64,000 nucleotides of DNA from contig NC_073303.1 in assembly GCF_027595985.1 (NCBI RefSeq), positions 94,620,591 to 94,684,590 on the forward strand, given 5' to 3'. This document shows, in pieces, positions 10,201 through 53,111 of this stretch (the stretch's first letter is position 1; the number at the start of each line of letters is the position of its first letter). Source of the DNA: Sorex araneus (lineage: Eukaryota > Chordata > Mammalia > Eulipotyphla > Soricidae). Position numbers and translations under genes: made by a program. A model generated the notes under the pieces. That model had not been told where the DNA came from. It searched no databases and was given only the letters and a program-made list of their open reading frames with translations.

Positions 10201-13200
10201 AAGTTTTTCTGTAGCTATGAATTCTCCTGGACTTTACTCTCCAGGGTCGACCACCCTTCTAAGAGAAGATTCAAGATACTGGTCGACCTGCAGAAAACTC
10301 AACCGTCTCAAGTAATGATGATCTCCCGGCTGCTCTACCTGGGTCAAGTCTTGTCTGAAATCCCCCAGTGTGACTTTGTTTGGAAATAGGGTCTTTACAG
10401 ACATACTGAGGTCAGACAAAATCATGTTGGCCTGCGACCCTACATCTAATGACTTCTGTCCTTACTAGAGGGCCTGGTGAAGAGACTACAGAGGTAGACT
10501 GAGAGAAGGGCCGGGAAAGATGGAGACAGAGACTAAAGTAACACAGTCGGTAATGAAGACTGGACCTCCGGCTGCCATCCAGGAAGTGGTAAGGAAATGT
10601 TCTCTCCTAGAACCCTCAGAGGGAGCATGGCTCACACCTTGAGTTCAGTCTTCCTCTAGAGCAGCTTGGTGCCTTGTGAGACCCCAGATTATTCCAAGGG
10701 ACCACAGGTAAATCACTTAAATAAATAACCACACGTAAAACTAGGGGCAACTGGTAAGACACAATGGTCCACAGAAATGTAACAAGTTTGGAAAGAGGAA
10801 CCATGGGCAGAAACCAGCTTCATAAACCATAGGGACACCACCACTGAACAGAGGGCACAGCAAATTCAACGACAGATAAATATTTGAACATTCAATGACA
10901 AATAATGTCTTCCAAAATCAAGTGCACCATGAATCTGAGGTAATTCTGGCAGTGCTCGCCATGCTGCGTTTCTTGGGTAAAAAGATGTGGCAAGTGGAAC
11001 CAGATTAAGAAGCCGGAGCTGAAGAACTGTGGGATGACAGTTGTCTGTCTTGTCTTCCAGTTTGTGGCAATATTTCTTCAGCACACCCATGTGAAACTAA
11101 TATGCCAACAGATTCCTATCTGATTCCAGTGAAATACTATCTTGTTGGAATTCTTAATAAGTACTAATATTTCATTAAAGTTTCTTCTTGAGGTTGTCTC
11201 TTTCCTCTTTCTGGCTTTCTCGGTAGTCTTGTCTTAACTAAGGAGGTTTATTTCTTTGAAGATAAAAGCCACACCTAAAATGCTATGATTATTTGCCACT
11301 TTAAGAAATATTTCTTCCCTGTAATGTAATATTTCTTTTAATATAATGCACTGATGTCCACTTGAAAACATAAGTAACACATTTTTCTAGGCTTCTTGGA
11401 CATTTCTCTGAGATTGTTAACTGCCTGGTCAGGACATTTTATCTGAATAACTGAGACGGACTATAATCACATTCACTGTATCACCATCATCCCTTTGCTC
11501 ATCAATTTGCTGGAGCAGGCACCAGTAACGTCTCCATTGTAAGACTTGTTGTTACTGTGTTTGGCATATTGAATATACTATGAGTAGCTTGCCAGGCTCT
11601 GCTGTGTGGGCGAGATACTCTCAGTAGCTTGCCGGGTTCTCTGAGAGGGGCAGAGGAATTGAACCTGGATCGCTCCAGCCATAATCACAGTAAGAAAAAA
11701 ATTATATTCAAATTCCAGGAACCTTCCCTTTTCTCCATAAAACCATGAATATTAGAGGTTTTCCACCATCCACCTGAACTTGTAAAATAATTCTTTTGCC
11801 TTGGACAACTTGGATGCCAAAAAGGAAGCTAGCTATTTTTATCTGTAACCAAGCAACTAAGAAATAACTTTAACATGTGGTCAAAGGAAGAGGAATAGAC
11901 CTGAAACATCAGAATACATGGCACAACTCTCAGCAAGGCTAGCTCTACCTTTAATAACTGTTAGAGCAGTTATTAAATATTATTAACAGTTATTAAATAA
12001 TACTATTAAGTAATATTATTATTAACCTTTATAAAATATTATTATTAGTCATTATTAACAGTTATTAAATATGATAGAAATTAACATCACTGCTTTCTTT
12101 CATTTGTTATGTAGAGTTACCAAGGAAAAACAATTTCAGGTATTAGTTACATATGGTATTTGTTTCCAAGGAAATTGGACTGATTAACCAGCAACAAAGA
12201 ATAAAAGTATATGATCTGTTGATTAATAGATTTGCTTTAAATTTGGAAAAAATGTGGTTTTTCTTTCCACTTGAAAATAAGTAAGAAAAATATTCCTTAG
12301 GTTTTATGGAGCTAAATGTAATTGCAAATACCCATAAGGGAGAATTTTGTAATTTCTTTTTAAACATCCTCATCCATAGCAGATAGAATATTCTCAGTGA
12401 GAGCACTCTAAATGTTACATTTGAGGAACTGAATGACAAAATAGGAAAAAAATAGTGCATGAGTATTAACACACACACATTCTAAGGACTTAGAAATACC
12501 TGTATCCTCCTTCAGTCACTGATTGAAATTTTACTGAATCTACCTTGATCACCCAACTCAGAAGCCTGCGAAATGCTCCTGGGCCCTTCCACCTTCCTCC
12601 TTGCTGATATCCTTCAGAATCTAATAAAGTCTAACTAAAATGATACATTCTTCAAACTCATACTCTTCTCCCTACATCTACTTCTACTTCCTTGTTTGTG
12701 CATGGACTGTGTTGTTTAGTGTTTCCCAGAAAGACTTGCCTGAGGCTCTCAAACTATGACCTTTAGAAATAGGACAATTATCGAGCAACTGATCAAGACA
12801 AGGTCACATTCTTGGAGAGTGTCTCAATCCAATGCAACTGGCATTTTTTTTTCTTCTGTGCTCAGGGGTTACTCTTGGCTTTGCACTCAGGAATTACTCC
12901 TGGCGGTGCTTGGGGGACCATATGGGATGCCGGGGATCGAACCCGGGTAAACATTTGTGATTACGTTTCGGTCACACAATGTTCAAGTGCCCATCCCTCC
13001 ACCAGTGCCCATTCTCCACCACCAATGTTCCCAGTATACCTCCTGCCACCCCCACCTCTTCCCACCCCCTGCCTCTGTGGTAGGCACATTCCCTTTTACT
13101 CCCACTCTCTCCTTCTGGGTGCTACAGAATGCAATACAGGTACTAAGCAGCCATCATGTTTGGTCCATAGTCTACTTTCAGCAAGTATTTACCATCCCGA

Positions 13201-22200: not shown

Positions 22201-25200
22201 GGTTTTGCATCTTATCTCCTCACCCCCACCCTGCACTTGCTCCTGGCACATGACACAACCAGGATCATTCATGACGTCCCAGAGGGTTAGGGACTAGCCT
22301 GCTCCCCCGGTCACTCAAGTTGCCCATAAAAAAATAACCAATCAACCACGTCACAGTTGCCCAAACTGAGCGTTCCAACCCCCCTCCCCCAACCCTCTTA
22401 AAGGATAGAGTGGTTCTGGGCTCCAGTTCTCATAGTCTGGTCAGCAGCTTACATGAACCTTTGCTTTATGGTGTTATGACTGGTTTTAACTGCCACTCAT
22501 CATCATTCCCCACCCACCACCCCTCCCCCAGCTCTCCATGCACACCGCAGTGCAGGCAGGGATGATGGGAGAGTGGGCTGGCTCCCGGGGCTGTCTTTGT
22601 CTCCCAGGCTATCTTTTAATTGCCTGCTGTATGCTGACCGTGGGGCCTGCTTACCTGTGGTTTGCTTAATGCAGGGGCTGCTCTCCAAAGAGCAAGAACC
22701 TGCAGCCCCGGGGGAGATGAGTGAGTCCCGAGCCTTTGCACTGCACCCCTCCAGGCAGGTCCCTCCCCCAGGCACCCACACTTACAGGCTGAGGGACGGC
22801 CGCGCTGCCTGCTGCCTGGCACCTCCCTGCCATCAGCACCGACACACCAGCAGAGGCGGCCACTGTCATCACACTGCACCGTCCTAAGGGTGGGAGAGAC
22901 ACGGTGACCCACTTGTCCAGCCTCAGTCCTGGGACTGCTCCGCTTCCTCCCACATTCAGGAGAGAGCTCTGAAGAGTGGAGAGGAGCAGGTGGCGGGAAG
23001 GGAAGACTGAACGTCCCTTCCTGGCTCAGTGAGCATCACCCTGGAGGCTGTGAATCCCTCACAACAGAGCCCTGCATGCAGGCAGGGCCTGCTGTCTGGA
23101 CACTGATGATACTCCAGAGGCCTCCGGTTCCCAAAGTGAGGCTGGTCTTAGGGGTGTGCAGGAGAATGTGGGGTAGAGTGTCCTGGAAGAAGTGAGGGCT
23201 CCATGGAGGACTCGGGGGTGCAGGGTGTTAGCCCCGGGTTATAGGGAGGTCCACGGGGTGCCAGGGGAAGGGAGCAGAAAACAGAATTTCCTGAGGAGGG
23301 CCAGGAGGGCCTTAAAAGTGCAACTAGCCCCAGATTCACCTCCTTCAAGAAGAGAGTCATGGTGAGGGGTCACTTAAGGTCTTTTACTGCCCCAAGATTC
23401 CCAGAGTCATTCAGGCAACGTTCAGTTCCCTCTTGAGAGTCTGGACACATCTGGTTGGGCGAGTAAGAGCATCTGCCCAACGGAGGGAGGGAGGGAGGAG
23501 TTATAATGTTTCCTAGCATAGGGTCACAGAAGCCAGGAATCTTCAGGAGCCAGGCCACAGACCAGTGCTCGTCTGCGAGAGCGGAGTGGTGAGAAATCAC
23601 AGTTGCATCACTTTGGCCCGTATGCAGGACATCTGCCAGCCTGCAGAAAAGGGTGAGAAATGCTGGTATAGACCGAACTATGGTTCCAGAGAACCAGAAG
23701 AGTGGTGGGAAAGTTGATTGCCTGTCCAATACAAAGAATTCCTGTATTTTCCACAGGGTTGTTTAGATGTGTAGGCTTTTACCTTTGTCACACCTGCAGA
23801 CAGGTGAAAATAGGAGACATCGTACGCGACGGCTAAGGCAGAAATTAAAATCATTATCTATAATAGTATCTTGTGAATCTGCTTTTAAACTGAATGTCAT
23901 CACAGTCACAGTCGATTTGCTCGAGCAGGCACCAGTAATGTCTCATTGTGAGACTTATTGTTACTGTTTTTGTTTTTGGCATATCGAATACACCACAGGT
24001 AGCTTGCCAGGCTCTCCTGTGTGGGCGAGATACTCTAGGTAGCTTGCTGGGCTCTCCGAGAGGGGCGGAGGAATCGAACAGGGTCAGCCACGTGCAAGGC
24101 AAATGCCCTACCATTGTGCTATCGCTCCAGCCCAAACTGAATGTCATAAAATTATTTATTTGTCCAGGTGAGCCTTGTGTGAAAGTGGCAACCACTATTT
24201 GGTGAACTAGCAGAAAATTTCTTGCCGACCACTATGGAAGTCGTGAGCTGGGGACTGAATCCCACTGGTTGGGATCATAACTCCACCATACATGGGAAAA
24301 ACCCTTGCTAGGTGCATTTCCCTTTTAGAGCAACTCATATTCCCTTTCATGAGAGGAACTTGTTGGTGGGATAAGGACAAGTAGCCAGAGAGATGCCTTC
24401 AAGGAACTCACAAACAATTCAGCCAGCTTCCCCTCCATCTCAACCTTTCAGGATCATACAAGGAGGAAGAGGAGGCATCAAAGCGTACAAGAACTAACCG
24501 CCTCCCCTACCTCACACACACACTTCTATTCAAGCAGTCATAATAAGAGTTAGACAGGAAAAGCCTGGTGGATCCCAGCTGGAATGAATAACAGGTTGGG
24601 AAGCTCTGGATCTGACTATCCAGCCTGGATTAGTCTGGAGAACCAAGAGGTGGGAACCCTCCAAACAACAGGGGCTCATCTTCCACACAGAGAGGAGAGT
24701 GAAGGGCTGAGTGGGGAGGCAGAAGGGGGATGTTCTTGCGTACCTCTGCGGACCGGTCCCCCCAGGGAGAAGGACACTTACTGGAAGCTGCCATCTTCTG
24801 TGCACTGGGGAACATAGTCTGCACGCCTCTGGAAGGCCTCTTCCCTTTGCAGCTCGCAAGGTCGCAGGGGTTGTACATCCACCTGGTACTCTAGAATGAG
24901 AGAAGCTATGCATCAGAGAAGAGTGTGGACTGCATTCCAGGAATGACGGCCCAATGCCTGTTGCACAGGTGTTGCATCCGGGTTTTCATTTTCATTCTAG
25001 CTCTGCTGCCAACAAGACTTAAACTTGTGATTATAGCTTTTAGCACTTGTGCAAGTGTGAAGCTTACTCCTTTAACCTCTTTCCGGCCACGCAATATCAC
25101 CCCTGAAGCATAGTAGCACTAAGTCTTGGGCAGTGGAAAAAGGTCCCGGTCCAGACCATATAGCTAGCAGGAGGAGTGCCCCGGGCTGAGAATTCTCCAG

Positions 25201-26211
25201 GTGTTCCTGAAAGTACCAAGCCACGCACTACACACCGGGCTCCCTCCCAGACAGGTCAGCCATACAAATAAAATAATGACTCCCCCAGGGTCTCCTAATG
25301 TGCAGGTGCCCGCTCAGAAACCATGACCCCATCGGGAGGTAGGTGTCATGTGTTTGCATCCTCACAGAAGAAGCATCAGCTGATTTCCATCTAAGCAGAT
25401 CCGGAAGTTGTGAAACAGAGGGTGTCAACACATGTGCGCTTAGAAGAACAAAACCTGAGACCTGACTAGAAAGGTGTGATACACCGGCAATGAGAATGTC
25501 CCTCCTGACCCAGAAACATCCACCAAGACTCTGTTTCCACCCTTCAGCCAGTGGGTGTGTGGCTTGGACACCCTGGGTGCTTTCTTCTCTCTGTGCCCCA
25601 AAGCCCATCCCCCTGCACAGGCCAAACCTCCACAGACTAGTCTGGCTCTGCCGACTGCAGGTGCTTCCCAAACTGCAGCTCCTCCTTGGATAAACTCCAT
25701 CTTTGGAAAATCCAGCTCCCTTCAGTTTATCTCTCTACTAAGTTGACAGAACTAAAGCTCAGGCTATCCAAAGACACACAGTAGGTGGGTTAAGCACATT
25801 ACACAAGAAGACTTGTTAGGGTTCCTACCTGGGGACTAGCACTCAAGTTACCTCACCCGGATGACAAGGTTTAAGGAGAGCTTAGGGAATTAAGGGGGGA
25901 AATAAGTGAGACATTCGCTCACAGGGTGAGTTTAAGGAGCTAGAGTCCTATGAGAAATTTCTGCTCTGGCATTTCTGTGACTTCAAGCAGTTCCATCTAT
26001 CTCTCAGAGTGAGTAATTGGCCCTAGAGGGGTTCCTAAGATGACAAAGAGTCCTGGTCTTGGGGCCAAGCCTTCCTGCTGGGAGCGCAGAGCCGTAAAGC
26101 TCCCTTTAGCCCTGCAGTTCTACATTCTAAGGGTAAGGACTCACCAAAGATGTTGGCAGACAAGCACCAGACGGAGCCTAGCAAACCGCAGAGCCACAGG
26201 ACTAGGCCCAT
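1095..26211 (-). CDS. TG: Thyroglobulin gene, 5' part (exons 1-15)
   Basis: Thyroglobulin is the very large secreted glycoprotein of the thyroid follicle on which iodinated tyrosines are coupled to make T4 and T3. Fourteen exons were located by translation and checked for AG acceptor, GT donor and matching phase; all coding lengths fit. The encoded protein has a 19-residue signal peptide, then NIFEYQVDVQ with the hormone-forming tyrosine at mature position 5, and then a series of thyroglobulin type-1 repeats with CWCV motifs (exons 2-3, 4, 5-7, 8, two at the end of 9, 10, 11-13, 15). N-glycosylation sequons are seen in exons 4, 5, 9, 10 and 11. The gene continues beyond position 1; the type-2 and type-3 repeats and the cholinesterase-like domain lie outside the window. 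Exon 14 appears decayed. Exon numbering follows the human gene from memory. Confidence 0.97.
1591..2566 (+). repeat. Direct-repeat pair flanking the TG exon 14 remnant
   Basis: About 70 bases at 1,591-1,662 and 2,495-2,566 share GGAAGGGTGCAAAGGTGGCT and the following GGGAACAACTGTC, with roughly nine of ten bases identical by eye. The copies bracket exon 14. I do not recognise the unit as one of the SINE or L1 families here. Confidence 0.75.
1957..2172 (-). pseudogene. TG: TG exon 14 remnant (type-1 repeat 9), apparently inactivated
   Basis: The 3' half is clearly homologous: TGEHARLQALETGSWCVDPA, then SGAGMPPGLNSTAQ, then a GTGAGT donor at the expected phase. The 5' half is degraded. In the same frame I can follow RSQ, then a TGA stop at about 2,098-2,100, then GPPKHLPVALSQ, against human RSQENPSPKDLFVPACLE. 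The internal cysteine is gone and three bases are missing. At the expected acceptor (around 2,167) the dinucleotide is GG, not AG, and the sequence just upstream is purine-rich instead of pyrimidine-rich. The next usable AG (at about 2,061, after a good pyrimidine tract) would shift the frame. Exon 14 is phase-symmetric, so exclusion would cleanly delete one type-1 domain. Alternatives are a local assembly or sequencing fault, or an unrecognised replacement exon. Confidence 0.62.
2709..2892 (+). mobile_element. SOR-type SINE with TSD
   Basis: Full-length copy with an A tail, flanked by a perfect 15-base duplication AATAATCCTTCCAGG (2,694-2,708 and 2,893-2,907). In TG intron 13. Confidence 0.93.
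3404..3462. repeat. Tandem 21-bp repeat of a palindrome
   Basis: ACTCAATGTTATCATTGAGTG occurs at 3,404-3,424 and 3,425-3,445, with a partial third copy. Each unit is itself an inverted repeat (ACTCAATG, loop TTAT, CATTGAGT). Confidence 0.9.
4447..4524 (-). CDS. TG: TG exon 13 (end of type-1 repeat 8)
   Basis: 78 bases encoding HCWCVDRKGQYIPASLTARF, the core of type-1 repeat 8. Acceptor TTCTAG, donor GTAAGT. It ends one base into a Cys codon, the same phase in which exon 14 should start and in which exon 15 does start, so a direct 13-to-15 splice stays in frame. Confidence 0.95.
4890..5012 (-). CDS. TG: TG exon 12
   Basis: 123 bases encoding NFYQRQSPAVGDGTGASLPY followed by IPQCDASGQWEPMQCHAQT. 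Frame and splice sites (GCAG, GTGAGC) are intact. Between FYQR and PQC the shrew sequence is about five residues shorter than the human protein as I recall it. Confidence 0.94.
5923..6162 (-). CDS. TG: TG exon 11 (start of type-1 repeat 8)
   Basis: 240 bases encoding PGSCEEAKLRVLQFIEDTEE, ASNSSWYPLAESFLVAKGIQ and GGDYALHLAAQS. Acceptor CTTAG, donor GTGAGT. The NSS sequon is conserved. Confidence 0.96.
6577..6775. repeat. (GGAA)n microsatellite in TG intron 10
   Basis: About 200 bases of AAGG/GGAA units ending in GGGA units. Confidence 0.95.
6851..6960 (+). mobile_element. Diverged SOR-type SINE fragment
   Basis: GGGGCTGTAGAGATTGTACA resembles the SINE head and CATGGTCCCCTAAGCATCTC its body. 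Heavily diverged. Confidence 0.5.
7100..7278 (+). mobile_element. SOR-type SINE, diverged
   Basis: GGGGCCAGAGAGATAGCACA, then GCCTTGCATGTGGTCAAT, CAGGAGTAATTTTTGAGCAC and a (CAAA)n tail. An older copy in TG intron 10. Confidence 0.85.
7376..7963 (-). CDS. TG: TG exon 10 (type-1 repeat 7)
   Basis: 588 bases starting PTPCQLQAERAFLGTV and ending CWCVDEAGQQLQGTQ. Type-1 repeat 7 is split by a long insertion, as in other mammals, containing NISYREAASGSF and NILLEPYLFWQILKGQL. Sequons NTS and NIS are present. Acceptor CCCCAG, donor GTGAGT. Confidence 0.97.
8245..8411 (-). mobile_element. SOR-type SINE, diverged
   Basis: Reverse orientation: GTTTACTCCTGGCTCCTGTA, then a tRNA-like head ending CTATCTCTCCAGCCC. 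It lies about 140 bases after the exon 9 donor. Confidence 0.75.
8554..9657 (-). CDS. TG: TG exon 9 (large exon; spacer plus type-1 repeats 5 and 6)
   Basis: 1,104 bases, open throughout in the phase set by exon 8. The N-terminal three quarters is the TG spacer region (for example ELFVDSG-like and FPSRMLARLALQFTTN motifs, and FNLSGALGSRGTFNFS with two sequons). The C-terminal part holds two type-1 repeats, with GECWCVDSRGQELPGSR and SECYCVDAEGQTIPGT cores. Acceptor TGTGCAG, donor GTAAGC. From memory the human exon is within a few bases of this length. Confidence 0.97.
9750..10090 (+). mobile_element. Two old SINE fragments in TG intron 8
   Basis: At about 9,918-10,090: GGGGCTTTAAAAACAATACA, GGCTTGCCTTGCAAACAG and GGGTTCAATCCCTGGCACCA follow the SINE head. 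At about 9,750-9,840 GCAGAGCACATGCATGACAT may be a still older copy (weak). Confidence 0.5.
11470..11682 (-). mobile_element. tRNA-headed SINE with RTE-derived tail, diverged
   Basis: The same tail (GGTGCCTGCTCCAGCAAATT on the minus strand) and body (two GGCAAGCTAC-type blocks, TTTGGCATATTGAATA region) are present. The head is internally deleted: only the end of the B box and the first 13 or so bases remain. Lies in TG intron 8. Confidence 0.8.
12844..12950 (-). mobile_element. SINE 3' part next to an L1 3' end
   Basis: Reverse SOR body GGGGTTACTCTTGGCTTTGC and ATGGGATGCCGGGGATCGAA, cut off in the B box. L1 3'-end sequence follows directly, so the SINE head has been lost at the junction. Confidence 0.8.
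12951..13610 (-). mobile_element. L1 3' UTR and ORF2 end, 5'-truncated
   Basis: Reverse L1 3' end: CACCAGTGCCCATTCTCCAC, CCACCACCAATGTTCCCAG and on to CATTCTAGCTATTGTAAACA (end of ORF2). Same order as in the L1 at 40.7-41.4 kb. Confidence 0.85.
14494..14682 (-). CDS. TG: TG exon 8 (type-1 repeat 4)
   Basis: 189 bases with PTKCEVERF, HPYIPSCDPNGNFQAVQC and GPCWCVDVQGREIYGT: one whole type-1 repeat. Acceptor CCTAG, donor GTGGGT. A run of four glutamines (QQQQ) sits where the human protein has a shorter RQQ. Confidence 0.96.
14894..15037 (-). CDS. TG: TG exon 7
   Basis: 144 bases encoding LELLLDEIYDTIFAGL and YRLLQRRFLAVQLIISGRFR, the long insertion near the end of type-1 repeat 3 that is typical of TG. 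Acceptor GCACAG, donor GTAAGG. Confidence 0.96.
15175..15348 (+). mobile_element. SOR-type SINE with TSD, near consensus
   Basis: Perfect 15-base duplication AAGACAGTAAAGACT (15,160-15,174 and 15,349-15,363). Head, B box, body and A tail all match the window consensus. In TG intron 6, about 120 bases upstream of exon 7 in gene order. Confidence 0.94.
15704..15810 (-). CDS. TG: TG exon 6
   Basis: 107 bases encoding FPDAFVTFKSFRSRFPEVSG and then CHCVDSQGRELAET, the divergent CxCV core of type-1 repeat 3. The acceptor follows a T-rich tract (TTTTTTAG) and the donor is GTAAGT. Confidence 0.97.
15811..17473 (-). other. TG intron 5, low-coordinate part, unique sequence
   Basis: No exon, SINE or L1 recognised here; AT-rich, with a short T run at 16,588. 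Nothing else seen. Confidence 0.6.
17474..17622 (+). mobile_element. SOR-type SINE, diverged
   Basis: GAATGATAGAACAGCAGGTA, GTTTGATCCCCAGTATCCCA and GAGTAAGCCCTGAGC. Older copy, immediately before the younger one at 17,650. Confidence 0.75.
17650..17826 (+). mobile_element. SOR-type SINE with TSD
   Basis: Head GGCTGGAGCGATAGCACAGC through GTGTGACCCAAAAAG and an A tail. Flanks AAGACAATCTTCAAG (before) and AAGACGAACTTCAAG (after) are an aged duplication. In TG intron 5. Confidence 0.9.
17840..19680 (-). other. TG intron 5, middle part, unique sequence
   Basis: No coding exon or recognised repeat. A plus-strand open frame at 18,163-18,525 has no family resemblance. Confidence 0.6.
19684..20077 (-). 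mobile_element. Two diverged SOR-type SINEs
   Basis: Copy one at about 19,684-19,822 (GGATCAAACCCCAGTTGG, CTACACTATTGCTCCAG). Copy two at about 19,937-20,077 (GGGCTTACTCCTGACTCTGT, TTCTATCTCTCTGGCCC), preceded by a (TTGA)n tail. Both reverse and old. Confidence 0.7.
20634..20817 (-). mobile_element. SOR-type SINE with TSD
   Basis: Reverse copy with a long T (A-tail) run, GGGAATCGAACCCGGGTCAG and TGTGCTATTGCTCCAGGCC. Flanked by CTCCATGCATTTT (20,621 and 20,818). About 230 bases from exon 5. Confidence 0.92.
21047..21206 (-). CDS. TG: TG exon 5 (start of type-1 repeat 3)
   Basis: 160 bases beginning PGSCEIRNRRLLHGVGDKSP and including QCKFVNTTDMMVFDLV with an NTT glycosylation sequon. Nearly identical to mammalian TG over this stretch. 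Acceptor GTAG, donor GTGAGG. A 5.2-kb intron follows before exon 6. Confidence 0.97.
21527..21730 (-). CDS. TG: TG exon 4 (type-1 repeat 2)
   Basis: 204 bases encoding a complete type-1 repeat: CQLQKQQILLSGYLNSTSS with an N-glycosylation sequon NST, then YLPQC and QCWCVDAEGMEVYGTR. Acceptor CCACAG, donor GTAAGT. The local sequence is GC-rich compared with the neighbouring introns. Confidence 0.97.
22786..22883 (-). CDS. TG: TG exon 3 (end of type-1 repeat 1)
   Basis: 98 bases, phase continuous with exons 2 and 4. Translation TVQCDDSGRLCWCVGADG carries the CWCV core of type-1 repeat 1, followed by the GSRQRGRPSAC end. The acceptor is CCTTAG and the donor GTAAGT. Confidence 0.96.
23901..24133 (-). 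mobile_element. tRNA-headed SINE with RTE-derived tail, complete copy
   Basis: On the minus strand it starts GGGCTGGAGCGATAGCACAA with a B box (GTTCGATTCC), passes through a GC-rich body (CTCTCGGAGAGCCCAGCAAG) and TATTCGATATGCCAAAAACA, and ends ATTACTGGTGCCTGCTCGAG followed by CAAATCGACTGTGACTGTG. A perfect 14-base TSD AAACTGAATGTCAT flanks it (23,887-23,900 and 24,134-24,147). The last ~60 bases match the 3' end of the RTE element at 46,141-46,205. Confidence 0.88.
24782..24890 (-). CDS. TG: TG exon 2 (hormonogenic tyrosine, start of first type-1 repeat)
   Basis: 109 coding bases between a CTAG acceptor and a GTAAGT donor. It encodes YQVDVQPLRPCELQ and then ADYVPQCTEDGSF. The first residue, Tyr of NIFEY, is the main thyroxine-forming acceptor site known for the family (mature Tyr5). 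The CELQ...YVPQC pattern is the first half of type-1 repeat 1. Confidence 0.96.
26145..26211 (-). CDS. TG: TG exon 1, coding part (signal peptide)
   Basis: The start ATG lies at 26,211-26,209. Translation gives MGLVLWLCGLLGSVWCLSA, a hydrophobic signal peptide of 19 residues, followed by NIF. The exon ends one base into the Glu codon, before a GTGAGT donor at 26,144. Start choice is supported by a TATAAA box 68 bases upstream and by the length and sequence match to mammalian TG. Confidence 0.96.
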
Positions 26212-26239
26212 TGCTCCGGGCCCTCCTGGGGGAAAGGGG

Positions 26240-26420
26240 TGGAAGCCACTGCCCACTCAGGGCTACGGCTAGGGAGCATTTATAGTGCCGTCCTGGGCAG
26301 ACTCCCCACCCACACTCAGCAAAAAGCAGCTCCCACCCTGTTTTCTCTGCTGGTCACAAGGAGTTCTTCCACTTACGTCTGATCCCTCTGAGGGCACTTA
26401 TGTAACAAATGAAGGATAAA
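26240..26420 (-). promoter_or_regulatory. TG: TG core promoter with TATA box
   Basis: On the minus strand TATAAA lies at 26,284-26,279, about 30 bases before a likely start near 26,250 and 68 bases before the ATG, as in other mammalian TG promoters. Upstream at 26,361-26,352 is CCTTGTGACC (reverse complement GGTCACAAGG), which lies in a block I recall as conserved in TG promoters and which holds a CTTG/CAAG core of the type bound by NKX2-1 (TTF-1). The factor assignment is family knowledge and was not tested. Confidence 0.75.
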
Positions 26421-26572
26421 ATCTTGTTCGGGCAATGGCCGGTTGGGGCGGGGGTGGGAAAGGGAGGCAGAAAAGTTTGAATGGAAACTTTGAAATTCAT
26501 CATTGTAGGTAAAGGCCAAAGCTCTGCGGCTTTGAGGCAATGAGCTTAGGTCTACCACAGAAAACAAGAAAG

Positions 26573-27315
26573 TCCTTCCTTCCTTCCTTCCTTCCTTCCT
26601 TCCTTCCTTCCTTCCTTCCTTCCTTCCTTCCTTCCTTCCTTCCTTCCTTCCTTCCTTCCTTCCTTCTTTCCTTCCTTCCTTCCTTCCTTCCTTCCTTCCT
26701 TCCTTCCTTCCTTCCTTCTTTCCTTCCTTCTTTCCTCCCTCCCTTCCTTCCTTCCTTCCTTCCTTCCTTTCTTCCTTCCTTCCTTCCTTACTTCCTCCTT
26801 CTTTCCTCCCTCCCCCCCTTCCTTTCTTCCTTCCTTCTTTCCTTCCTTCCTTCCTTCCTTCCTTCCTTCCTTCCTTCCTTCCTTCCTTCCTTCCTTCTTT
26901 CCTTCCTTCCTTCCTTCCTTCCTTCCTTCCTTCCTTCCTTCCTCCCTACCTCTCTTCCTTCCTTCCTCTCTTCCTTCCTTCCTTCCTCCCTCCTTTCCTT
27001 CCTTCCTTCCTTCCTTCCTTCCTTCCTTCCTTCCTTCCTTCCTTCCTTCCTTCCTTCCTTCCTTCCTTCCTTCCTTCCTTCCTCCCTTTCTCCCTCCCTC
27101 CCTTCCTTCCTTCCTGCCTTCCTTCCTTCCTTCCTTCCTTCCTTCCTTCTTTCCTTTCTCCCTCCCTCCCTCCCTCCCTCTCTTTCTCCCTCCCTCTCTT
27201 CCTCTCTTCCTTCTTTCCTTCCTTCCTTCCTTCCTTCTTCATTTTTTTCTTCCGCCCATCCATCCTTCCTTCCCCCTCCCTACTTTCCTTTATTCTTTCC
27301 TTCCTCTTTTTCTCC
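26573..27315. repeat. Giant (TTCC)n / (GGAA)n array upstream of TG
   Basis: About 740 bases of almost uninterrupted TTCC units (to about 27,240), then degraded pyrimidine sequence. On the TG coding strand it reads GGAA. Its near end lies about 320 bases upstream of the probable TG start site. Confidence 0.95.
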
Positions 27316-28594
27316 CTTGAAAATGCTTCAGAAACCCACAGTATCAGGCACTATTCTACACAATGAAGTTATGGTAGAAAACAAAATAAGCAGTCTTTTA
27401 CAAAGGTAAGAATTTCAGTGTTACAACCCATGCATTTGCATTCATATTCATATTTTTCCCCTCTCTCCCAGGACTTGGCGTATTGCCAACCTAAAGGGAT
27501 CAGGACCTGCATCTTGCACACAGAAGCTTTATATGAGTGTCTCCTTTGACTGGGCACACTGAGTGCCCTGGAGAAACCATCTCATATCCCTGTGACCCAT
27601 CTGCATTCCACAGAAAAGAGAAGTGAGGTAAGAACTATATGTGTGCCCACTTGCTAGGGTTGCTAGTGGGAAAGAAGTGTGACATGAAGGAAGATTAGGC
27701 ACGTAGTAATCACGGCTCATACTTGTTTCTTTCTTTAATTTGTAAGTGACATCATGCCTGGGAAGGTCAGATTTGAAGAAGAGCCACCCAACAAGTGAGA
27801 GGCAGGTGACAGGGTGTGGGCAGGCAGGGGAGGCCTTATTAAGGCTCCCTTAATAAGGAGAGGCAGAGTTAGTGAGACACCGGGGGAGGGGAAAGCAGGC
27901 TGGGAGACAAGTCACCATGAAGAACATGGAAGGGTAACAGACTGCATGTAGGAAAGCAAAAGCCAGTAGTTCTAGAGAGTACAGGTGTGTTCAATGCAGA
28001 ATGCTTAAAACAGGTCAGTATCTGGGACATAGTAAGGACTCAGCATTGATGCTCTCATTGCTGTGATGCAAAACAAAGAAAGTAAAATTTAGTAACAGTT
28101 TTCACTGTTGAAATTAGAAATAGTCCAGAACTGCCACTTGTCGCTTCCTTCCAGGGGAATCCCACTGCTCCACGGTGCTGGTATCTCTGCTTCTGTGACT
28201 GCCTCAAACTGGATCTTCATTTTCATCCGTGTTCATGTGCTCGTACGTCACTCTGTCCAACTCTACTCCCAGCCCCAGTCCAGTGTTTCCCTTCCCGGGA
28301 AGGGGCACTGGAGGGCTTGGGGGGGGGGGCAGTGGTAGGTGTCGGTGCCCCAATTGGGTTCAGTCAGTAATAGTAGGCAGATTTCCAGGGCAAAAGTGGG
28401 GGGTCTTGAGTACGTTTCTTTCAGCAAAGGGGACAGTAGACCAGCCTGGGGAACCTCTGTCACATCTATCTCCAGCTCCAAAATCAGCCATCATCCCATC
28501 CCCACCCCTAGCCCCAGCTCCCTCTCTTTATCTCCACACAGACATTTCTCTGGACTCCCAGTCCACTTTCCCCAGATCATCTACATTTCAAACT

Positions 28595-28852
28595 CAACTG
28601 TCACTGCCACTGTCACTGTCATCCCGTTGCTCATTGATTTGCTCTAGCAGGCACCAGTAACGTCTCCATTGTGAGATTTGTTTATTACTGTTTTTGACAT
28701 ATCGAATACGCCACGGGGAGCTTGCCAGGCTCTGCCATGCAGGCAGGATACTCTTGGTTGCTTGCTGGGCTCTCCGAGAGGGACGAAGGAATCAAACCCG
28801 GGTCGGCCACATGCAAGGCAAACGCCCTACCACTGTCCTATCGCTCCAGCCC
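28595..28852 (-). mobile_element. tRNA-headed SINE with RTE-derived tail
   Basis: Same family as at 23.9 kb, full length. On the minus strand the tail reads GTTACTGGTGCCTGCTAGAG, then CAAATCAATGAGCAACGGG and ATGACAGTGACAGTGGCAG. The TGACAG-type repeat replaces the A-tail of the ordinary SINE. The flanks AACTCAAC and CAACTCAC suggest a short, imperfect TSD. Confidence 0.85.
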
Positions 28853-29329
28853 ACAACTCACATGTTTCAAAAAAATAATTTCTGGAGACTATCCCCAGTG
28901 CTGCATCTTACCAGGAATTTTCTGTTTCTCTAACAGCAAGCCCAAAGGGCATCCCAGACCTTGTACTTGGATCTAACCAGTCCTGACTCCTACCAGCACA
29001 TGTTTAGAGTCTGTCCTGGGGTACAGGCTCTCTGCACAGCACCCACCCCTCATTCCTCTCTGCCCTTCTGGCTCCCCGGCTGTGAATGAGCCAGCCAGCA
29101 CTGCCTCCTATCCTGACGCTCACCAGAGTCCTGCTGCAATCTGGGGGTGTGGAGAGAAGGGGCATGGGCAGAGGGGGCTGGGCAGCGAGAGTCACTCCAC
29201 AGGTGTTTGGGAGGAAGTGCGAATGGGCCTTGGAGATCAGGGAGGGGGGTCACAGGGCAGAATAAAAGTGGAATTCAGATTTAGACACAGAGAATTTGAG
29301 ATGATGTGTTGGCATCTACTGGCGGGGGG

Positions 29330-31362: not shown

Positions 31363-31480
31363 AGTACTGGTGAAGGGATGGGTGTTTGAGCATTGTATGA
31401 CTGGGACTTAAAACTGAAAGCTTTGTAACTTTCCACATGGTGATTCAATAAAAGAATAAATTAATTTAAAAAATTTAAAA
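31363..31480 (+). mobile_element. L1 3' end fragment
   Basis: GGTGAAGGGATGGGTGTTTG, then GATTCAATAAAAG and an A-rich tail: the terminal ~115 bases of L1, plus strand. It follows one copy of AGAGTACT(T)GG and precedes another. Confidence 0.8.
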
Positions 31481-44144: not shown

Positions 44145-44187
44145 AACAAAATTAATTTTTAATTTTTAACTGAATCATCGTGGGAAG

Positions 44188-46205
44188 ATGCAATGGTTGA
44201 CAACATTGACGAGGAATACGATCGACTGGTTCAGCACCTCTATGACTGCATGAAGAATGCCAAGAGTGGAAAAGCCACAAACAGACGCCTGTCTTCAGAA
44301 ACTCTCAAGCTCATTCACCAACGTGGTTTGGCATGAGCCTCAGGTAATCACAAGCTAACGTCCAAGCTCACAAAGCTGTGCAGAGAAGCGATTAAAGGAA
44401 GGCCTTAAAGAGAGAAGAGCAGCAGTGTTGGACAATGCAGCAGAAGCCAGGAAAAGTATTTGTAACGCTTGCCTGTCCTCGGCCAACTACAAGACCAAGA
44501 TAACTGCGCTCTGACATCCTTATGGATCTATCACATCTTCCAGAAGGGCAATGGAGAGGATTAGTCACGACTTCTACTCAGATCTCTTCAACAGCCATGT
44601 ATACCTGCCCACATACCAAATTCCACAGGATGGATATGTCAGCCCCAACGTCCTCCCTTCTGAAATCCAACACGCTGTTTTGTCGATAAAGATGCATACA
44701 GCACCTGGTCCAGAGAAGGTCAGACCTGAACACCTGAAGAATCTGCCACCAGTACTCGTCAATACACTGGCTCGGCATTTTTTACGCTGCCTGTCCATAG
44801 GCAAGGTTCCATCCCAGTGGAAAACCAGCAGGACCGTCCTATTGGACAAGAAAGGAGATATCCAAGACATTGGCAACTATTGCCCAATCTGCCTGTTGTC
44901 CGTCGTCTACAAGTTGTTCACTCGAATCATCCTGAATAGAATAGGCAGAACACTAGATGAAGGACAACCATTTGAGCAGGCCAGGTTCCGAAAAGGATTC
45001 AGCATGATTGACCATATCCACACAGTGACCAAGCTCATCAAAGTTTCTCGAGAGTTCAAGATGCTGCTCTGTCTAACGTTCATCGATTTAAAGAAGGCCT
45101 TTGATTCTGTTGAGACTGAAGCAATCATCAAAGTCCTAGCCAAACAGGGCGTTCAATCTCAGTAGATCAGGATCCTCCATGAACTGTATTTTGGATTCAC
45201 CACCAGAATCTCACCATTCTACAGGGAGGTGATCATTGATGTAAAGAGAGGAGTGCAGCAGGATGACACCATTTCACCGAAACTCTTCAGTGCCACCCTG
45301 GAGAATGTCATGCGAGACTGGAATGCGAAGGAATGGGAGTGAAGATAGATGGTTGGCAACTACACCACCTCCACTTCGCTGATGACATTGTTCTAATAAC
45401 ACCAAACATTAGCCAAGCAGGACAAATGCTGGCCGACTTCAACCGTGAGTGTGGAAAGGTCATACTGCAGCTGAATCTCACCAAGACAATGTTCATGAAA
45501 AAAGAACTAGTCCCTGGCGTTTCATTTGCTCTCAATGGAATGAACATCTCCGAATGCAGCAGCTATGTGTACCTGGGTTGAGAACTCAACATGAGGAATG
45601 ACTTTGGCGCCAGAACTATGCAGGAGGAAGAGAGCAACGTGGAATGCCTTCAAGAGCTTTGAAGAAGTTGTTAAGAGGATGAAGAACCTCTGGCTTCAGG
45701 CACATCTTTTCGACTCCACTGTTCTCCCTGCACTAACATACGCCTCAGATACCTGGGCCCAGTGAAAACAGGATAACAATGCTATTTGGGTATCCCAAAG
45801 GGGAATCAAAAGAGCTATGACTGGAATATCACATTTCACTCAAGTGAGAGAAGGAATCTGGGGTTCTGACCTCCGTCAATGATCAAGAATCAGGGACGCT
45901 GTCTTGTTTGCCAAGGCATCAAAAATCAGATGGGCTGGACATGTAATGCGATTTAGAGATGACCGCTGAACTAGAGCTGTTACCGACTGGATTCCATGGG
46001 ACATCAAAAGACCGCATGGCCGCCCACCTACGAGATGGTCAGGTTTCTTTGTCAAAACCCTGAATGAATGATTTGAGGGTCTTTGTGTTCCTGGAGTGAG
46101 CAGATACCATTGAGCTACACTATCATGTGACAGGGACAAATGGAGACATTACTGGTGCCTGCTCAAGCAAATCGGAGATCAACACAATGACAAGTGACAA
46201 GTGAC
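44188..46205 (+). mobile_element. 5'-truncated RTE-clade retrotransposon (RTE1_Sar-like)
   Basis: A degenerate non-LTR element lacking the endonuclease. The reverse transcriptase is recognisable: LPSEIQHAVLSIKMHTAPGP, then RTVLLDKKGDIQDIGNYCPI, then LTFIDLKKAFDSVETEA, with the catalytic FADDIVLITPNISQA box at about 45,375-45,420. The C-terminal part follows (RPPTRWSGFF-like and RDKW). Stops and frameshifts occur at about 44,335, 45,165 and 45,580 and later. The 3' end is short TGACAAG repeats, not poly(A), as usual for RTE elements. The flanks AACTGAATCATCGTGGGA (44,169) and AATTGAATCATCATGAGA (46,206) look like an aged target duplication within an L1 3' end. A nematode-shrew RTE transfer has been reported as I recall; family assignment is from recognition only. 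Confidence 0.85.
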
Positions 46206-46680
46206 AATTGAATCATCATGAGATAGTTACAAAGCTTTCATGATTGAGTTTCAATCATACAATTATCGAACACCCATCTCTCCAGCAGTGTACATTTTCC
46301 ACCACCAATGTCCCCAGTATCTCTCCCCCCAACCCACCCCATGCATGCCCTGCCTCTGTGGCAGGCACTCTTTTTATTACTCTCCTCTCTACTTTGGGGC
46401 AACAGGGTTTGCAACACAGATACCAAGGACCATCATGTTTGGTCCTTTTCAGCACACATCTCCGTTCCGAGTGATCCCTCCAATCATCATTGACTTAGTG
46501 GTCTCTTCTATATCCCAACTGCTTTTCCCCCCATGAGCCAGGCTTCCAACCTAGGAGTGATCCTCCTGACCCTTGTCTCTACTGTCCTTGGGTGTTAGTC
46601 TCATGTTACTTTTATATTTCACAAATGAGTGCAGTCATTCTATGTCTGTCCCTCTCTTTCTGACTCATTTCACTTATATT
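46206..46680 (-). mobile_element. L1 3' UTR fragment
   Basis: AATTGAATCATCATGAGATA, TTCCACCACCAATGTCCCCA, GGTTTGCAACACAGATACCA and TCTTTCTGACTCATTTCACT: reverse L1 3' UTR and end of ORF2. Adjoins the RTE element. Confidence 0.85.
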
Positions 46681-46755: not shown

Positions 46756-48023
46756 TTTTCTTCTTTTTTAAAAAATTTTATTGAATCACCGTGAGATAGT
46801 TACAAGCTTTCATGTTTGGGTTACAATCTCACAATGATCAAACACCCATCCCTCCACCAGTGCACATTCCCCACCACCAATATCCCGGGTATACCCCACC
46901 TTTCCCACAGTCCCCCTGCCTCTAAGGCAGACAATATTCCCCATACTCTTTCTCTACTTTTGGGCATCATGGCTTGCAACACAGACACTGAGAGGTCATC
47001 ATGTTTAGTTCATTATCTACTTTCGGCCTGCATCTCCCATCCCGACTGGTTCCTCCAGCCATCATTTTCTAGTGATCCCTTCTGTATTCCATCTGCCTTC
47101 TCCCCTCTGCTCATGAAGCAGTCTTCCAGCTATGGGGCAATCCCCCTGGCCCTTGGATATACCATCCTTGGGTGTCAGCCTCATGTGATACTACCCCACA
47201 CTCCACAAATGAGTGCAGTCCCTCTATGTCTGTCCCTCTCTTTCTGACTCATTTCACCTAGCATGATACTCTCCATGTCTATCCATTTATAAGCAAATTT
47301 CATGACTTCATCTCCCCTAACAGCTGCAAAATATTCCATTGTGTAGATGTACCAAAGTTTCTTTAACTAGTCATCTGCTTTAGGGCACTCGGGTTGTTTC
47401 AGATTTTGGCTATTGTGAACAGTGCTGTAATGAATATATAGGTACAGATGTCATTTCTACTGTGCTCTTTTGCATCCTTGGGATATATTCCCAGAAGTGG
47501 TATTGCGGGGTCATATATGGAAGCTCAATTTCTAGTTTTTGAAGGACTGTCCATATTGTTTTCCAAAAAGGCTGGACTAGTCGGCATTCCCACCAACAGT
47601 GAAGGAGTGTTCCCTTTTCCCCACATCTACGCTAGCACTGGTTGCTTTTGTTCTTTTGAATGTGTGCCAGTTTCTGTGGTGTGAGATGATATCTCACTGT
47701 TGTTTTGATTTGCATCTCCTTGATGACTAGTGATATGAAGCATTTTTTCATGTGCCTTTGGGACATTTGTATTTCTTTTTTGAGGAAACTTCTGTTCATT
47801 TCTTCTCCCCATTTTTTGATGGGGTTGGAGGTTTTTTTCTTATACAATTCTACAAGTATCTTGTATATCCTTGATATTAATCCCTTATCAGATGGGTATT
47901 GGGTAAATATTCTTTCCCATTCTGTGGGCTCTTTCTGTATTTTGGTCACTGTTTTGTTTGGAGTGCAGAAGCTTCTTAGTTTGATGTAGTCCCATTTGCT
48001 TATGTTTGCTTCCACTTGCATAC
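46756..48023 (-). mobile_element. 5'-truncated L1 (ORF2 end plus 3' UTR) with TSD
   Basis: 1.27 kb reverse L1 with A-rich tail at the low end and ORF2 C-terminal coding traces ([20 protein letters not shown]). Flanks CTACCCTTGACTTTC (46,741) and CTACCCTGACTTTC (48,024) form the target duplication. Confidence 0.88.
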
Positions 48024-52981: not shown

Positions 52982-53111
52982 GCACTGTCATCCCATTGTC
53001 CATCGATTTTGCTTGAGCGGGCACCAGTAACGTCTCCATTGTGAGAGTTGTTGTTCCTGATTTTGGCATACCGAATATGCCATGGGTAGCTTGCCAGGCT
53101 CTGCCTTGCAA
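52982..53111 (-). mobile_element. 5'-truncated copy of the RTE-tailed SINE
   Basis: Only the body end and the RTE-derived tail are present, with the tail at the low-coordinate side (GCACTGTCATCCC on the plus strand). A perfect 10-base TSD AAATTATGTA flanks it (52,972-52,981 and 53,112-53,121), so this truncated form was a genuine insertion. Confidence 0.82.

Follow-up and report, generated by a model that had tools for sequence, protein, structure and literature searches.

Pairing of SINEs with LINEs through common 3′ ends is already established, and BovB provides the precedent for a SINE that depends on a transferred LINE. SINE/LINE pairs compiled in Table 1 of PMC3747384 include Bov-tA, Bov-A2, Ped-1/2 and the Afro SINEs, and the mammal rows of that table hold no shrew entry. 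BovB was likely acquired horizontally (PMC13295347), RTE-dependent SINEs have been described (PMC8620236), and Sor is a shrew T- SINE (PMC8466645). Sorex araneus moreover carries RTE1_Sar, an abundant RTE-clade LINE with its nearest relatives among Heligmosomoides and Nippostrongylus elements. It was found in nine parasitic nematodes besides S. araneus and not detected in three other eulipotyphlans, from which horizontal transfer was inferred, with a nematode-to-shrew direction favoured and unproven (PMC6542046). SINEs receive no mention in the main text of that paper. Our search of mostly open literature found no description of an RTE-tailed shrew SINE; Repbase, Dfam and SINEBase lay outside this search and may hold an entry.

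Here, we analyse a SINE (further referred to as the tailed SINE) and its RTE partner in a 64,000-nt stretch of S. araneus DNA (the window), together with their relatives throughout the genome (a 2.406-Gb assembly of 65 contigs).

Anatomy of the tailed SINE

The focal copy is flanked on both sides by AAACTGAATGTCAT, with 14 of 14 nt matching (Table 1), which supports its insertion as one unit, as an earlier note based on the letters of the window had already proposed. In a genome search for this element, 40 of 5,031 candidates were scored. The family consensus spans 247 nt and is laid out as a tRNA-Ala head (positions 1–65), a segment of the RTE 5′ UTR (64–174), a short junction and the RTE 3′ end (182–247), with roughly three quarters of the SINE being RTE-derived. 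Specifically, the head is identical to that of a poly(A)-tailed SINE at 63 of 66 sites (family consensus), the body to the RTE 5′ UTR at 105 of 111 sites (against a consensus of 11 copies, i.e., ten genome places plus L031), and the tail to the RTE 3′ consensus at 51 of 53 sites. This succession of a tRNA-like head, an RTE-derived body and an RTE-derived tail is secure. Since both RTE ends are present, most of the SINE has been borrowed from its likely driver.

Table 1. Coordinates of the features in the window, and places representing the deletion variants
Feature	Position or places	Strand	Evidence or remark
Focal copy of the tRNA-Ala-headed SINE, body and tail RTE-derived	23901..24133	-	40 genome places scored
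Target-site duplication, SINE 3′ side	23887..23900		AAACTGAATGTCAT
Target-site duplication, SINE 5′ side	24134..24147		AAACTGAATGTCAT
tRNA-derived head, also in the poly(A)-tailed SINE	24069..24133	-	89% over 66 nt to family head
Body from RTE 5′ UTR	23965..24071	-	86% over 107 nt to RTE 5′ consensus
3′ block from RTE ORF end, with TGACTG repeats	23902..23945	-	33 nt, 94%, RTE 3′ consensus
Second copy of the tailed SINE, near full-length	28605..28858	-	3′ block in common
Third copy of the tailed SINE, head largely deleted	11474..11672	-	3′ block in common
Fourth copy of the tailed SINE, 5′-truncated	52983..53110	-	3′ block in common
5′-truncated, broken RTE copy with RT domain, end of the ORF and tail repeats	44183..46205	+	RVT_1 Pfam matches on two pieces
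RTE 3′ end common with the SINE tail	46136..46204	+	alignment to SINE and consensus
Probable RTE target-site duplication, 5′ side	44168..44182		AACTGAATCATCGTG vs. AATTGAATCATCATG
Probable RTE target-site duplication, 3′ side	46206..46220		13/15 identical to 5′ side
Variant V1	L088/L121		~90 nt of RTE end retained
Variant V2	L078, L082, L085		
Variant V3	L086, L021, L023, L026, L094-L107		
Variant V4 (window type)			~53 nt of RTE end retained

The tail as the sole RTE part of the SINE was rejected, as the body matches the RTE 5′ UTR; the RTE share is thus far larger than the ~60 bases given by the earlier note, the middle ~110 nt being RTE as well. Likewise, the idea that a native shrew SINE had adopted foreign machinery holds for the ~65-nt head, which is native, and fails for the remainder, which is RTE. 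The proposed tRNA origin of the head is upheld by its likeness to the head of the poly(A)-tailed SINE, in which ARAGORN reads tRNA-Ala, even though ARAGORN made no tRNA call on the focal copy itself. A and B boxes could be read by eye in the tRNA-related head, from which transcription by pol III can be predicted. Having such a head, and being short, dispersed, present in high copy number and flanked by target-site duplications (TSDs), the family is a tRNA-derived SINE. The RTE 5′ UTR segment was not unusually stable upon folding (z of –1.5), and Rfam returned no match at gathering score for window positions 23,800–29,000. In one copy (L019:740-990), a ~38-nt unit of the RTE 5′ UTR segment appears by eye to be present three times rather than two.

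Alignment of the SINE and RTE tail consensuses scored 101, as opposed to a maximum of 31 in 500 dinucleotide shuffles, and a further shuffle control gave 148 vs. a maximum of 26 (500 shuffles). Both consensus differences fall within a single stretch (GATGAGC in the SINE vs. GAAGATC in the RTE consensus), and the SINE form is present in some RTE copies. Within the window, focal SINE positions 23,944–23,913 agree with RTE positions 46,143–46,174 at 96.9% over 32 nt, so that the RTE match described for the focal tail stands, whereas its repeats are TGACTG rather than the TGACAG described. The stretch ATGAGCAACGGGATG is absent from the focal copy, a loss seen in one of 47 tails read. Among these 47 (which include seven places representing one multiplied insertion), 46 end without a terminal A tract and a single one (the second L008 copy) continues into A-rich DNA; the tailed SINE hence lacks the A-rich tail of the Sor-type poly(A) SINE. 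Most tails finish in TGACAG, TGATACAG, TGACTG or TGCTACAG repeats, which vary among copies and resemble those of the RTE. The TGCTACAG repeats mostly go together with GATGAAC in place of GATGAGC.

The RTE partner and its ends

The partner in the window appears to be an RTE-clade LINE, with RVT_1 (reverse transcriptase) found on two of the three window pieces tested with Pfam. DNA at its 3′ side (46207–46240) recurs within the window at 46780–46812 and 31415–31449, so that an older interspersed repeat was probably the target of this RTE insertion.

All 24 RTE 3′ ends that were read by eye (20 chosen as best matches to the window copy plus four from the window and random stretches) stop in short TGATACAAG/TGACAAG-type repeats, beyond which the DNA differs. 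The RTE 3′ consensus translates in frame to HWATLARDRDKWRRYWCPLEQIEDQRDDK and a stop, indicating that the block in common codes for the C-terminus of the RTE protein (~17 codons). The stop codon falls within the tail repeat, so that the 3′ UTR is very short and made up of TGA-rich repeats, as is typical of RTE elements. The alignment of the consensus 3′ ends, which could have refuted the reading of the earlier note, together with the 24 termini confirms that the SINE ends in the RTE terminus, as that note had held.

With up to one mismatch allowed, the SINE-type ending was found at nine places in the genome. RTE sequence runs throughout the ~60 nt shown upstream of this ending in three of them (L075, L077 and L079), and over ~20–25 nt in two others (L076 and L080), as expected of 5′-truncated copies. 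Of the remaining four, L074 is an RTE that reads GATGATC, two (L078 and L082) belong to the SINE-like variants, and L081 has almost no upstream RTE. The SINE tail is identical to L075 and L077 at 52 of 53 sites and to L079 at 51 of 53. RTE copies that end in the SINE-type form, such as L075 and L077, are rare, and the RTE ending with which the SINE tail agrees best is not the commonest form among the copies read. The upstream 35-mer AGCAGACGCC..., i.e., the type of L075, L079 and the V1 junction, occurs in 192 exact genome copies.

At the other end, the middle segment of the SINE lies immediately 5′ of the RTE reading frame in a random genome stretch (L031). When a 391-nt query comprising this UTR and the ORF start was searched, 39 other places spanned 384 nt or more of it at 88–90% among the best 40 of 8,948 candidates scored (query included); as best-scoring places, these point to many loci with the UTR contiguous to the ORF and are not proof that every RTE has it. 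The 11-copy RTE consensus reaches ~310 nt further upstream, over which agreement drops from 0.9 to 0.63. The start of the RTE consensus, MTVCTFNAHTLASEASIEDLMVQAQKIKYDIIGLTETR, presumably resembles an APE-type endonuclease; the endonuclease region gave no Pfam match in one decayed copy (L031), and two weak PDB matches to the endonuclease piece (E of 0.81 and 1.5) were judged to be chance. A scan of viral_contigs with the RT piece returned no relative. Rfam scans of nine RTE or V3 stretches were empty at E up to 1, i.e., no catalogued ribozyme family was seen.

Genome-wide counts and the poly(A)-tailed SINE

Exact 35-mers were counted throughout the genome. The head/UTR junction of the tailed SINE yielded 19,261 copies and its UTR/3′-end junction 15,308, while the corresponding 3′ junction on the RTE side yielded 1,558, roughly two thirds of them true RTE; the reversed control was 0 in each case. 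Among 31 RTE-side places read, ~20 had RTE upstream (7/11 plus 13/20), eight were SINE-like variants and three were ambiguous. The exact 35-mers thus place SINE-side and RTE-side junctions at ~10:1, a ratio that rises above this value once the SINE-like variants are removed from the RTE side. In a 264-kb sample (the window plus 20 random 10-kb stretches), 19 tailed SINE copies reached the 3′ block and five RTE copies were at least 600 nt long. Extrapolating from this small sample would put the tailed SINE at around 10^5 copies (order of magnitude).

The poly(A)-tailed SINE that has the same head and a different body is abundant and is probably Sor. AAAAAA was found within 15 nt of the end in 42 of 89 copies, and all seven ARAGORN tRNA-Ala(TGC) calls in the window fell inside copies of this type. 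In the 264 kb, its head/body junction was present 102 times vs. 16 for the tailed SINE (~6 times commoner). Its divergence ranged from 1 to 29% (85 copies of at least 120 nt; window plus L014–L033), which suggests prolonged or recurrent activity or a mixture of subfamilies; since such a mixture is probable, it was left out as an age measure. The body did not match the RTE-derived V3 element. Both primers of a Soricidae SINE assay (PMC8608897, Table 1) are exact in the consensus of the poly(A) SINE; by eye, the probe shows two differing positions.

Deletion variants

Four types of join between the RTE 5′ UTR and the RTE 3′ end, i.e., V1 to V4, were distinguished (Table 1). The V1 join, a second UTR/3′-end junction, counts 96 exact copies (reversed control 0), and the one V1 copy read upstream (L121) begins in the RTE UTR without a tRNA head. 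In fact, no tRNA head was present upstream of the variants in any of 18 copies (14 V3 copies and L118–L121), although L118 and L119 are 5′-truncated and therefore carry little weight in this count. Headless derivatives that join the RTE 5′ UTR to the RTE 3′ end therefore exist. The longer variants (V3) as tRNA-headed ancestors were rejected, with the head lacking within ~150 nt upstream in all 14 copies fetched.

V2 and V3 have in common a region further upstream that is not related to the UTR, seen in L120 and in nine of the 14 fetched V3 copies (L094–L107), and are thus not fully independent of each other. This region holds a TATAAAA motif (GAGACTATAAAACAAAGC) and might represent a promoter or LTR that was captured. 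The ~53 nt plus repeats that are common to all variants likely constitute the recognition end. The deletion series in this way maps the smallest retained end and offers a direct experimental target.

Divergence and insertion marks

Divergence was taken from the consensus at sites outside CG/TG/CA dinucleotides. In the 264-kb sample it amounted to 5.3% (95% interval 4.2–6.3) for 17 tailed SINE copies of at least 150 nt that include the 3′ block, and to 6.4% (4.8–8.5) for the five RTE copies of at least 600 nt, whose five-copy consensus underestimates divergence (pairwise non-CpG differences were 10–18%). With matched selection, i.e., by a perfectly matching 35-mer in the 3′ block, in 40 non-random places from the start of the match list of contig C1 alone, divergence was 4.4% (3.5–5.4) for the SINE and 5.8% (4.5–7.1) for the RTE, and 2.2% and 2.5%, respectively, by transversions alone. 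These values are based on 17 of the 20 places on the SINE side and 11 of the 20 on the RTE side; among the nine RTE-side places dropped, L130 and L140 resemble short RTE stretches, L126–L129 and L132 are SINE-like, and L123 and L125 are ambiguous. Given the overlapping intervals, the SINE and the RTE are of similar age, and the comparison of ages suggested by the earlier note gives no sign of an older SINE.

TSDs were scored in 34 of 36 full-length copies, seven of which have one TSD in common. A score of at least 10 was reached by eight of the 34 flanked copies (one of which, L073, sits in simple AT-rich sequence) vs. none of the mismatched-flank controls, and a score of at least 9 by 16 of 34 vs. 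5% of controls, with seven of these 16 representing one multiplied insertion; ten of 34 had no TSD by the scoring rule. The seven places concerned (L002, L003, L006, L007, L059, L060 and L061) are spread over several contigs and all have TTAATAACCTGGA as their flanking TSD; three of them lie no more than 0.35 Mb from a contig end, and all seven probably stem from one insertion within a larger duplicated unit. A tailed SINE nested in an older poly(A) SINE (L030) was the sole credible case of nesting, other listed nested pairs being judged chance pairings.

Proposed origin

The tailed SINE is very probably a non-autonomous retroposon that was built from RTE ends and a tRNA-Ala head and is mobilised in trans by the RTE, the latter being the best reading that the sequence comparisons offer. 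Its assembly most likely took two steps and started with an RTE-clade LINE giving rise to internally deleted copies that kept the 5′ UTR, the last ~53–90 nt of the ORF and the TGA-rich repeats. Subsequently, a tRNA-Ala head with pol III boxes, of the kind also present in the native poly(A) SINE, would have been placed upstream of the UTR segment; the order of these two steps is itself our inference. Pol III would then transcribe the composite, whose 3′ end the RTE reverse transcriptase would recognise in trans, priming at the nicked target and inserting the SINE with a TSD. As two separate RTE parts lie within it, the SINE cannot predate the RTE.

The same segments would also occur in both elements if the RTE had instead taken its 5′ UTR (and perhaps its 3′ end) from a pre-existing shrew SINE, and LINEs with captured 5′ ends do exist in general. 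This reversed direction is nevertheless very unlikely, because the common 3′ block is RTE coding sequence, forms that join the UTR to the 3′ end occur without a tRNA head, the UTR continues through the ORF start in the 40 best-scored places, and the 11-copy RTE consensus reaches further upstream still, albeit with the falling agreement mentioned above. Similarly improbable is that L1 moves the tailed SINE as it would the poly(A) SINE, with the RTE parts as mere passengers: the head is common to a SINE that is often poly(A)-tailed, and one of the 47 tailed SINE ends does enter A-rich DNA, but the other 46 lack an end A tract and mostly carry short TGA-containing or TGCTACAG repeats. Moreover, the terminal block was retained, while other parts of the RTE went missing in the various deletion variants. 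Chance or low complexity as the source of the 3′ block similarity can be dismissed altogether, being refuted by the shuffle tests and by the genome counts with their empty reversed controls.

A further question is where the partner came from. Its host, abundance and RTE class suggest that the window RTE is RTE1_Sar, in which case its nematode descent would be suggested by the published transfer of that element (PMC6542046). The indirect nature of this identification leaves some room for a long-standing shrew RTE that preceded any transfer involving nematodes. We consider such a native origin unlikely, as RTE1_Sar was reported from no other mammal and as absent from hedgehog, solenodon and star-nosed mole reads (PMC6542046), and as divergence is modest (5.8–6.4% at non-CpG-like sites). 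More tentatively, and with somewhat less than even confidence, RTE-driven mobilisation of the SINE can be extended to a BovB-like parasite chain that re-evolved in shrews after the nematode RTE transfer, passing from the LINE via a 5′ UTR/3′-end derivative to a tRNA-headed SINE. If true, the RTE 5′ UTR would carry something that the parasites need besides the 3′ tail, and a transferred LINE would be open to seizure by host SINE heads soon after its arrival. With the shrew LINE being probably the one whose nematode transfer was published, the SINE would also provide a relative clock and a copy-number measure of the aftermath.

Comparison with known systems

The shrew system resembles those of ruminants in two respects: Bov-A2 likewise combines the 5′ end and the tail of its LINE, BovB, and Bov-tA likewise joins a tRNA head to the tail of an RTE-clade LINE (PMC3747384). 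The analogy with Bov-tA and BovB drawn in the earlier note therefore stands, and is closer than could be known at that time since both the 5′ and the 3′ end of the RTE are present. The tailed SINE works alike and is not Bov-tA, however, its head being tRNA-Ala-like whereas that of Bov-tA is tRNA-Glu. In addition, the shrew LINE is another RTE, for which, as the probable RTE1_Sar, a connection to nematodes has been published, while the link of BovB is to snakes. Although likened to the BovB system by its layout, the shrew system most likely arose independently of it.

In the springhare, Ped-2 with BovB_Pca similarly pairs a native SINE head (ID) with an RTE tail, and the Afro SINEs with RTE1 of afrotherians pair a tRNA head with an RTE 3′ end, this latter system also listing an RTE 5′-end derivative, RTE1-N1_LA (PMC3747384). 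The shrew system differs from Ped-2/BovB_Pca in host, head and LINE, and from the Afro SINEs in partner lineage and host. Sor belongs to the same host group and differs in having another body and often a poly(A) tail. Finally, shrews and ruminants both have derivatives that retain the 5′ UTR, which raises a testable question about the role of this UTR.
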